Made by a program: the position numbers and the translations under genes
Notes under the pieces: generated by a model
The model's input: only the letters and a program-made list of their open reading frames with translations
Database searches by the model: none
What the model was told of the DNA's origin: nothing
In this document: one piece after another, positions 11,867-16,048 of the stretch
How the letters are laid out: every line of letters starts with the position of its first letter
Position numbering within the stretch: position 1 is the stretch's first letter
Source: Bacillota bacterium
GTDB lineage: Bacteria; Sysuimicrobiota; Sysuimicrobiia; Sysuimicrobiales; Segetimicrobiaceae
DNA: 64,000 bases
NCBI GenBank assembly: GCA_021324255.1
Contig: JAJPJL010000046.1
Coordinates: 1 to 64,000, forward strand
Direction of reading: 5' to 3'

Positions 11867-13087
11867 CTACCGCGGCGCGAGCCCGAGCATGTTGACGACG
11901 TAGACATAGGTGCCGGCGTTCCAGGCGAAGGGTACCTCCGCCGTGTAGAATCTGCGGGAGAGCGGCCGTCCCTCGGGTGTATAGACCTCGCTCACGGCGT
12001 TCGAGGCCGCGTACCACTCGCCGATCAGCGCGAGGTCCGCGAGCGCGCCGGGCCGGTCGCCGAGCCGCTCTTTGCACGCCGCAAAGAGCGTGCCGAGCCA
12101 CGGCCAGATCAACGCTCGGTGATAGTCGGGGATGCCGGCCAGGTAGTACAGTGGGAACACCCGCCACCAGGGGTAGACGGGGTCGCACGGGCGAAGCGGG
12201 GTGCCTCGTTGGAGTCCCCGGGCCTGGACGAAGCGGATGATCCGCCGTCCCTGGTCGGGCGAGGCGATGCGGAAGAGGACGGCGAGCATGTTGCCGTCCG
12301 ATGAAAACCCGCCCCGCCCCCGCCCATGGATCCAGTCCACGAAGTAGTCGCCGTTCCAAAACGCCGCCTGGATCCGCGCCTGCACCCGCTCCGCACGCCG
12401 GGCGCAGGCATCGGCGGCGTCCGACGCGCCCAGCGCGCGCTTGATCGCCTCGCACGCCCGCAGCGCCGCGCAGTAGTACATGTTCAGGTCGCAGATCTTG
12501 TTGACCTTGAGAATGGAGTCCATCCAGTCGGCGAGAAAGTGGCTCTCGATGAGATCATCGCCGTCGCGGTCCTGCCGCGCGAGCCACGCGATGGCGCGGT
12601 CCATCGCCGGCTCGAACCGCCGCGCGAACGCCACGTCGCCCGTCCGGTCGAGGTACGCGGCCGCGGCGATGACGAACAGAGCCGCTGGATCTACCGGATC
12701 GGTAAAGATGCCGCCGGCCCGCCCGATCACCTTGGGCCGGTTCAACAGGCGGCGGTAGCCGCCCGCGGTCTCCCCCACAAACTCGAGGCGCACCGGGATG
12801 CAGCCGCTGGCGCGCTGAAACTCCATAAAGGTCTCCAGTTGTGCCGCGACCTGGTCGTGGTCACCGAGCGCGAGTGCGCCGAACGACGCCCAGAAACCGT
12901 CGCGCGCCCAGTAGGCGTTGAAATGCAGGCGTCCGGCGACGATGCCGCCGGGATTGTAGCACGCTCGGAGGTCGCGCACGGCGATGTGGTAGGCCCGCCG
13001 TATCGCACCGAGGTGCGCCGGGCCGGATAGAGGGGACGTCGTCACCGGCTCGCCGGCATGCGAGGGCGGCTCCATCATGCTCGACAT
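11867..13087 (-). CDS. Six-hairpin (alpha/alpha)6 glycosidase, debranching/trehalase-like
   Basis: A 406-residue protein of the six-hairpin glycosidase type, with no signal peptide. Marks are FNAYWARDGFWASFGALALGD (the WARD motif common to GH15/GH65/GDE-like enzymes), LARQDRDGDDLIESHFLADWMDSI with acidic residues suited to catalysis, CDPVYPWWRVFPLYYLAG, and YTAEVPFAWNAGTYVYVVNML. It should act on alpha-glucosides, perhaps trehalose or glycogen-type oligomers; substrate is not deducible. ATG 13087 has GGGGGAAG directly upstream and is preferred to a start 37 codons further out. A second glycosidase of a related fold lies at 28599. Confidence 0.7.
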   Translation of the reverse strand: MSSMMEPPSHAGEPVTTSPLSGPAHLGAIRRAYHIAVRDLRACYNPGGIVAGRLHFNAYWARDGFWASFGALALGDHDQVAAQLETFMEFQRASGCIPVRLEFVGETAGGYRRLLNRPKVIGRAGGIFTDPVDPAALFVIAAAAYLDRTGDVAFARRFEPAMDRAIAWLARQDRDGDDLIESHFLADWMDSILKVNKICDLNMYYCAALRACEAIKRALGASDAADACARRAERVQARIQAAFWNGDYFVDWIHGRGRGGFSSDGNMLAVLFRIASPDQGRRIIRFVQARGLQRGTPLRPCDPVYPWWRVFPLYYLAGIPDYHRALIWPWLGTLFAACKERLGDRPGALADLALIGEWYAASNAVSEVYTPEGRPLSRRFYTAEVPFAWNAGTYVYVVNMLGLAPR

Positions 13088-13158
13088 GGCTTCCCCCCGT
13101 TCATTGCCCCAAAGTGACAGGTTGACAGACCCGGGTTGCGCTGCCGCGCTTCGTTTCC

Positions 13159-13188
13159 TTGACAAGTTCGAGCGACGTGTGCTATCTT
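13159..13188 (+). promoter_or_regulatory. Forward sigma70-type promoter with no downstream gene
   Basis: TTGACA (13159-13164), an 18-bp spacer, then TATCTT (13183-13188). It points to the right into an intergenic stretch, while both flanking genes run leftward. It has one of the best -35 boxes in the window. It would start an RNA near 13195. Confidence 0.5.
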
Positions 13189-13194
13189 GGCCTC

Positions 13195-13360
13195 CCATCT
13201 CGATGAGAGCGATCCGCAGCGCCGGGAGACCGGCTCAAGCGGTTCGACGGTATCCGGCACAAGAGCGGGCGATTTCTCCAGGATGGGGCATCGACGGCTG
13301 CGACAGCCGAGAGCGGGTGGTATTCCCGTACTCGGCGGCAGCCGTCGAAGTTTGTCCTCG
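13195..13360 (+). ncRNA. Candidate structured small RNA or leader in a gene-free gap
   Basis: The gap 13088-13432 has no credible protein gene. Downstream of the forward promoter lies a strong nested hairpin: CGACGGCTGC (13292-13301) pairs with GCAGCCGTCG (13338-13347), GCCGAG with CTCGGC, and CGGG with CCCG around loop TGGTATT; then AAGTTTGTCC. GGGTGGTA in the apical part recalls a T-box core, but the ACCGCGG continuation is missing and no tRNA-related gene follows. Function unknown; it might be a trans-acting RNA or a relic leader. Confidence 0.35.
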
Positions 13361-13432
13361 CCGCTCCCTACGCGCCCGGGTGTTTCCACTCATTGCCGCG
13401 GTAGGCAACCCGCCCTCATGCGGCCGCGCCGG

Positions 13433-14155
13433 CTAAGGCTTGCCCATGGGCCGGGCGATGCGAAAGTCATGCCTCGGGGGCGCCGCGGGGAGCCTCAGGA
13501 CATCCGTTCGCCGCAATCTGACCGCCAGACCGACGCCGCGCAGGCCGTCGACCGGACCACCCGGGACGGTCAGCGCCCCCTCGAGGACGACCGGATCGCC
13601 GATCGCGGCGAACCGGTACGGATCACGCGTGGTCCGATCCCCGATCCGGACACCACCCGGCACCGCCGCGATCCCGTCGGTCGCCAGCATGCGGATGCCG
13701 TTTACCGACACCGCCTCCGCGCCGGCGGCCCACAACTCGTTGACGATCCCCCGGACATCCTGTGCCTGGGGTACCGACAGATGGTTGGGATCCGCGCTCA
13801 CAACGACGGTGACGCCGGGCCCCTCGACCGGGGTTTGCCCGAGCTCCAGGTGGTAGGCGTCGCGCTCGCGCCGGAGCGCCTCGACGATGCCCCGCCCCGC
13901 CGCAACCGCGCTCTGGATCTGCCGCTGCTTCGCCTCCAGAGCGCGCACCTCGTCCGTGAGGGCGCGATCGGCTTCCTGCTGGCGCCGTATCAGCACGGCA
14001 AGATCGGCCAGGCGATACGACGGCAGGGCGAGCTCCGCCTGCAGCGCCCGTTCGGCGCGCAGCTGCAGGACCAGCAAGAATCCGGCGAAGAGCAACAGCG
14101 CCGCGACGCCACGCTGCCAAACCGCCAGGGTCGTCCCCCCTCGTCGTGCCTGCAT
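13433..14155 (-). CDS. DUF881 family membrane-anchored protein
   Basis: A 240-residue DUF881 (PF05949) protein: one N-terminal membrane segment (AALLLFAGFLLVLQL), a coiled coil (about residues 35-100), then the DUF881 domain with GQTPVEGPGVTVVVSAD, VRGIVNELWAAGAEAVSVNGIRM and PYRFAAIGDPVVLEGAL. In Gram-positive bacteria such proteins lie near division genes (ylxW/ylxX), but here it stands alone, with glycosidase and groEL as neighbours. Role unknown, likely envelope-associated. Start at 14155 is the first Met of the frame. Confidence 0.9.
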   Translation of the reverse strand: MQARRGGTTLAVWQRGVAALLLFAGFLLVLQLRAERALQAELALPSYRLADLAVLIRRQQEADRALTDEVRALEAKQRQIQSAVAAGRGIVEALRRERDAYHLELGQTPVEGPGVTVVVSADPNHLSVPQAQDVRGIVNELWAAGAEAVSVNGIRMLATDGIAAVPGGVRIGDRTTRDPYRFAAIGDPVVLEGALTVPGGPVDGLRGVGLAVRLRRTDVLRLPAAPPRHDFRIARPMGKP

Positions 14156-14359: not shown

Positions 14360-14386
14360 TTAGCACTTGACCATTAAGAGTGCTAA
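14360..14386. promoter_or_regulatory. CIRCE element (HrcA operator) of groEL
   Basis: TTAGCACTT-N9-GAGTGCTAA matches the CIRCE consensus TTAGCACTC-N9-GAGTGCTAA except for one base at the end of the first half-site. It lies 28 bp before the groEL start, so heat-shock control by HrcA is expected. Confidence 0.93.

Positions 14387-16048
<1,662 letters not shown>

Follow-up and report, generated by a model that had tools for sequence, protein, structure and literature searches.

What is transcribed from a promoter that points into a gap without genes? The question is raised by the 64,000-nucleotide stretch of DNA analysed here (the window), in which the initial annotation had proposed that one such gap encodes an undescribed small RNA. 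Our comparison of related genomes argues for this proposal, which is supported by covarying homologues and by the lack of an Rfam match. Judged by such comparison, the locus is almost certainly a real stand-alone structured RNA gene. The gap and its surroundings are organized as follows:

11867-13090, minus strand: left neighbour, a glycoside hydrolase gene of the 6-hairpin glycosidase type (domain typing)
13159-13188, plus strand: sigma-70-type promoter, TTGACA-18-TATCTT (promoter-like pair at the same place in 31/31 orthologues)
13194-13358, plus strand: structured small RNA (covariance models R1-R3)
13433-14155, minus strand: right neighbour, a DUF881 gene convergent with the RNA (domain typing)
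14360-14386, plus strand: CIRCE operator, 27 bp before groEL
14414-16048, plus strand: groEL, the constant syntenic neighbour (neighbourhood comparison)

The gap lies between the glycosidase gene and the DUF881 gene, and both run opposite to the promoter, as had been claimed. The start of the glycosidase gene at 13090 was taken from related genes; an alternative in-frame ATG lies further upstream at 13198 and would make the reading frame overlap the RNA. The promoter, described earlier as a consensus -35, an 18-bp spacer and a -10, is indeed near-consensus. It comprises TTGACA (13159-13164), the spacer of 18 bp, a TG at 13180-13181 and TATCTT (13183-13188), and is the single promoter-like site on either strand between 12700 and 13900, where shuffled sequences predict 0.1 ± 0.3. 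A promoter-like hexamer pair ends just 5' of helix P1 in all 31 orthologues, with best scores of 9.0-12.5 (maximum 13) and p values, from 200 shuffles of the sequence upstream of each copy, that are at most 0.05 in each orthologue and at most 0.02 in 30. From the position of the -10 element, the RNA would begin near 13194-13196; its 3' end would lie at 13358.

Homologues were collected stepwise. Of 100 genomes searched at the DNA level (the window's own and its relatives), 12 had a match, and one of these matches was set aside as chance. The covariance model R1, built on ten of the first homologues, matched 30 of the 43 genomes of the window's phylum, which is probably Candidatus Sysuimicrobiota. 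In the early MAFFT alignments (A1 and A2) the 3' strand of P1 was one base off in several rows; the model was rebuilt as R2 from six cleanly aligned rows (A6), and 33 copies were realigned to it to give alignment A7. The copy of G026 fell below the cut-off of R2 and is not in A7, and is matched by R1 and R3. The final model, R3, was made from the 33 copies; that R1-R3 match the rows on which they were trained is true by construction. R3 places the RNA in 31 of the 43 phylum genomes and in none of the 343 other genomes of the 386-genome sample, under strict filters that can lose weak matches. Before counting, we dropped six wrong-strand matches to the palindrome and a match on contig C113 of G037 that has neither body nor promoter by eye, the true copy of this genome being on C124. 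The remaining 34 copies in 31 genomes comprise 31 orthologues and three paralogues, and covariation is present in all five scored helices, which answers the earlier call for covarying homologues.

The predicted RNA is about 165 nt long: a rod of about 95 nt comes first, followed by the 58-nt hairpin P4 and then by a short tail rich in U. Its parts, all on the plus strand, are:

13194-13287, plus strand: rod domain (covariation of P1, P2 and P3; duplex energies of P1b; folding)
13194-13200 with 13281-13287, plus strand: P1 (covariation)
13205-13208 with 13275-13278, plus strand: P1b (duplex-energy test)
13214-13217 with 13265-13268, plus strand: P2 (covariation)
13221-13226 with 13253-13258, plus strand: P3 (covariation)
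13260-13263, plus strand: CAAG (longer strand of the internal loop between P2 and P3), all four positions identical in 30/30 orthologue rows
13291-13348, plus strand: 3' hairpin P4 (covariation, folding)
13291-13301 with 13338-13348, 13306-13311 with 13331-13336, and 13313-13317 with 13325-13329, plus strand: stems of P4
13302-13305 (GACA) opposite 13337 (G), plus strand: 4x1 internal loop of P4
13349-13358, plus strand: U-rich tail (homologue tails)

The nested hairpin had been recognized before with stems of 10, 6 and 4 bp; the same stems have 11, 6 and 5 pairs here, at 13291-13348. This hairpin is predicted at -40.9 kcal/mol with a z score of -5.98, a stability equalled in 0/200 shuffles. 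The rod, a second structured domain that lies 5' of the hairpin and is additional to the earlier description, is predicted at -38.9 kcal/mol with a z score of -2.03, and 6/200 shuffles fold equally well. For the full stretch (13195-13375) the z score is -2.82 and 1/200 shuffles is equally good. The fold of the rod alone is unconvincing, and becomes convincing because the homologues support it.

In A7, 26 of the 33 base pairs have pair-keeping changes on both sides, and 128 cells carry pair-keeping double changes compared with 36.7 in shuffles. The covariation score of 0.425 stands against 0.194 in shuffles, none of which (0/500) was as high. A7 was fitted to a model structure, which biases the alignment in favour of that structure; the main check is the set of six controls in which the partners were slid by 1-3 columns: 95.6% of cells are paired in the alignment and 37.4-44.8% in the controls, a large margin over all six. 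Folded one by one and without the model, most rows again show a rod followed by a hairpin, by eye. Helix P1b (GAGR/YCUC) lies outside the model; its native strand pairs average -7.2 kcal/mol compared with -6.4 kcal/mol for exchanged pairs, with a permutation p of 0.002 that is uncorrected for the relatedness of the rows.

Two internal loops are near-invariant, AA/CAAGN between P2 and P3 and G-N-C-R/G in P4. In the latter, neither the C nor the lone G on the opposite side differs in any of the 30 orthologue rows, and the first G is identical in 97% of them. Neither the length nor the sequence of the P3 apical loop is constant. This combination of invariant internal loops and a variable apical loop suggests that recognition of a folded shape fits better than a base-pairing seed. 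A kink-turn requires a 3-nt bulge followed by tandem G-A and A-G pairs. The P2/P3 loop has suitable dimensions for one and was rejected on its sequence: its short strand reads GA in only 5/33 rows and AA in 16, and its long strand varies at the fifth base. The two copies of AGAGCGGG and the T-box-like stretch GGGTGGTA that had attracted attention are present in the window, at 13262 and 13310 and at 13315, respectively; neither is kept among the homologues in the alignment, by eye, and their occurrence is a coincidence.

The 3' end is less sure than the 5' end because a four-T run follows P4 in only 18/31 orthologue tails (counted by eye) and the window copy has three T. Taken by itself, a terminator-like site is found at chance level (one found compared with 0.5 ± 0.9 expected). 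P4 with its U-rich tail may be an intrinsic terminator, weak in the window genome; termination is uncertain, since 13 of the 31 orthologues, namely the window copy and 12 others, have no four-T run.

The genomic address of the RNA is constant, in that groEL lies within about 3.5 kb in 31/31 orthologues. The relative orientation is not: RNA and groEL are on the same strand in 22 genomes and on opposite strands in nine. In families f1, f5 and f6 (22 genomes), the RNA lies upstream of groEL and on its strand, usually with an opposite-strand DUF881 gene between them, the exception being genus g2; in the genus that contains G003, G006 and G008, groEL is the next downstream gene and on the same strand. 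In f2 (nine genomes) the RNA is directed away from groEL and faces a gene for a DUF5666 protein, a CsoR-type repressor or a metal-transporting ATPase. Neighbour domains were typed in one member each and some reading frames were left untyped; among the typed neighbours, no constant same-strand downstream gene was found. In 30 of the 31 genomes, the 200 bp upstream of groEL contain a CIRCE operator with at most two mismatches to the consensus; in G030 only one half is clear. This suggests that groEL is controlled separately. The RNA is probably an independent unit, because its strand relative to groEL flips while promoter and fold persist.

In the window's genus, three genomes contain an additional copy at another locus. 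These paralogues keep the fold; they have no recognizable promoter (p 0.31-0.56), and CAAG is missing from two of the three. In the window genome the second copy, with fold kept and promoter not recognizable, is on the minus strand of contig C32 of G000 (L002:1491-1635). An Hsp20 gene (L002:1968-2471) adjoins it, 5' to 5'.

Beyond the phylum, a pattern search of genome contigs returned 15 matches, of which eight are copies already found within the phylum and seven, outside it, have the hairpin alone or a chance-like model score. The best match outside the phylum is in Pseudomonas guryensis (L094; R3 E 0.0036), where the hairpin is present and the rod absent. Three viral contigs of IMG/VR (L135, L136 and L137) share an exact P4-like hairpin pattern; their RNA model scores are chance-like (best E 0.12).

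Twelve of the 43 phylum genomes have no convincing match, even with laxer filters, which gave weak short matches in four of them (E 0.04-0.5) that were left uncounted. These negatives are all seven genomes of f4, one of f3 and four less complete assemblies (G011, G017, G024 and G042; completeness 68-86%). Six of the seven f4 genomes are 94-100% complete. As the RNA is missing from the whole of f4, it is either dispensable there or changed beyond recognition. In four f3/f4 genomes (G013, G014, G019 and G022), the expected site of the RNA next to DUF881 is occupied by tRNA-Leu(tag) and tRNA-Lys(ctt), in the following regions:

L126, 3285-3637: tRNA-Leu(tag) and tRNA-Lys(ctt)
L127, 3337-3570: tRNA-Leu(tag) and tRNA-Lys(ctt)
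L131, 3475-3710: tRNA-Leu(tag) and tRNA-Lys(ctt)
L132, 3649-3971: tRNA-Leu(tag) and tRNA-Lys(ctt)

In the window, tRNAs of the same anticodons are at 2576-2858, 10 kb from the RNA locus. In the four f3/f4 genomes, the RNA could have been lost through local deletion or rearrangement.

The sequence comparison thus establishes a conserved covarying fold, a conserved promoter-like site and linkage to groEL, and the locus combines a promoter of its own with a covarying structure, as a stand-alone RNA would. We consider it rather probable that the product is a stand-alone non-coding RNA of about 165 nt, restricted to this phylum so far, which has its own promoter, acts in trans and is bound by protein. 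More tentatively, with slightly less than even confidence, the RNA may be stable and constitutive and act in trans within a ribonucleoprotein. A trans-acting ribonucleoprotein is the best fit because the helices are rigid and conserved, the loops near-invariant, the promoter strong, and the main copy single in each genome. In such a scheme, a housekeeping-type promoter of the RNA's own would drive transcription, and P4 with its U-rich tail would probably end the transcript; P1-P3 and P4 would form rigid rods, on which the P2/P3 loop and the P4 loop would be the recognition sites. We infer that the RNA is transcribed, has the ends given above and binds protein.

The same layout of promoter and probable terminator hairpin is also usual for small regulatory RNAs, which would here pair with mRNAs through the apical loop and a pyrimidine-rich segment. 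The P3 apical loop does contain a semi-conserved AAG (by eye), with two A positions at 83-87%. We nevertheless regard base-pairing regulation as unlikely: the strongest conservation is mostly in paired positions or internal loops, the apical loop as the natural seed is the most variable part in length and letters, and the YCUC segment, the other possible seed, is probably paired in P1b. Much less likely still is a role in cis, as the leader of a downstream gene (groEL or another) in the form of a riboswitch, attenuator or thermosensor. Such a leader would explain the attenuator-like P4 with its U-rich tail, as well as the single genus in which groEL follows directly. However, DUF881 intervenes in f5, f6 and the rest of f1, and the RNA points away from groEL in f2. 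The 22/9 split in orientation and groEL's own CIRCE in 30/31 genomes indicate that the RNA is not a groEL leader, and groEL's own control together with the lack of a constant downstream gene argues against leaders and riboswitches.

Two further explanations appear extremely unlikely. A feature of the DNA itself, either a palindromic terminator of converging genes or a repeat element, would account for P4 lying close to where the converging DUF881 gene ends in f5, f6 and most f1 genomes, and for the second copy in three genomes; but the rod shows RNA covariation and has a promoter-like site ahead of it in 31/31 orthologues, there is one main copy per genome, and the neighbours differ in f2. Equally unlikely is that the RNA is a diverged T-box, 6S, SRP or Y RNA; GGGTGGTA resembles a T-box core, and in size and in its housekeeping-type promoter the RNA is reminiscent of 6S RNA. 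Searches of Rfam 15 at E values up to 1, which the initial annotation had recommended, gave no match to the RNA at the window locus or at 20 homologous loci. At the former there was one sub-threshold match, on the other strand and about 230 bases away, and over the whole window only four tRNAs reached gathering scores. The earlier doubt about a T-box leader (RF00230) was justified: no T-box match appeared at E up to 1, the letters of the P4 loop differ between copies, no UGGN bulge is conserved, and no aminoacyl-tRNA synthetase or amino-acid gene was identified downstream, where DUF881, groEL, DUF5666, CsoR-type or metal ATPase genes stand instead, although not every reading frame was typed. 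A Y RNA was rejected as no Ro/TROVE (Ro60/Rsr) gene occurs in the 43 phylum genomes; among 14 control genomes, Deinobacterium chartae alone was positive. The only SRP match of the window genome is elsewhere (G000:C3:2-101). 6S RNA, which has no match in the window genome, is a separate gene found in 28 of the 43 genomes (27 above cut-off), with the best match elsewhere in each. Both RNAs occur in 25 genomes, the new RNA alone in six, 6S alone in three and neither in nine. An Rfam-detectable 6S RNA was not found in G000-G002 (the window's genus), the seven f4 genomes, G013 and four less complete genomes; the f3/f4 negatives lack both RNAs.

The preferred trans-acting, protein-bound RNA belongs to a new family, previously unlisted in Rfam and in the open-licence literature, where no title or abstract among the matches listed for the phylum, the genus or candidate structured RNAs describes it. 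The main text of PMC11604079 has no mention of noncoding RNA, small RNA, sRNA or riboswitch, and describes transcriptomic reads as mapped to predicted protein-coding genes, so that study probably passed over this locus. We infer that earlier comparative surveys had covered little sequence of Sysuimicrobiota, a poorly studied phylum common in soils, in which this RNA family covaries strongly. Most sampled members of this uncultured soil and hot-spring phylum keep the RNA near groEL. Reading the raw sequence of one gap has led to a whole RNA family that now has a covariance model, a promoter and a constant location in the genome; metatranscriptome reads of a Sysuimicrobiota enrichment are public (SRR27732999, as given in PMC11604079). 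The two near-invariant internal loops provide a direct handle on the partner of the RNA. It is an improbable idea that this is a phylum-specific housekeeping ribonucleoprotein RNA, as central to Sysuimicrobiota as 6S or SRP RNA are to other bacteria, whose linkage to groEL reflects a role in protein quality control or stress; if so, it could bind, for example, a chaperone or stress regulator. The second copy beside the Hsp20 gene would fit such a role, and may be due to chance.

Like the orphan structured RNAs obtained by comparative genomics, such as the candidates of PMC2864571, the RNA was found via covariation and is itself an orphan. It differs from them in having no match in Rfam 15. The likeness to T-box leaders consists of the GGGTGGTA stretch of the window copy, and this TGGT loop is not kept in the homologues. 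Bacterial Y RNAs are small stand-alone RNAs with a closing stem, and the new RNA is alike in these respects; unlike them, it has no Ro/TROVE partner gene here. With 6S RNA (RF00013) it shares a similar length, a stand-alone gene, a housekeeping-type promoter and an irregular rod. 6S RNA forms a single long hairpin, paired at its ends and open in a large bubble at the centre, whereas the new RNA consists of a rod of about 95 nt followed by a separate 3' hairpin.
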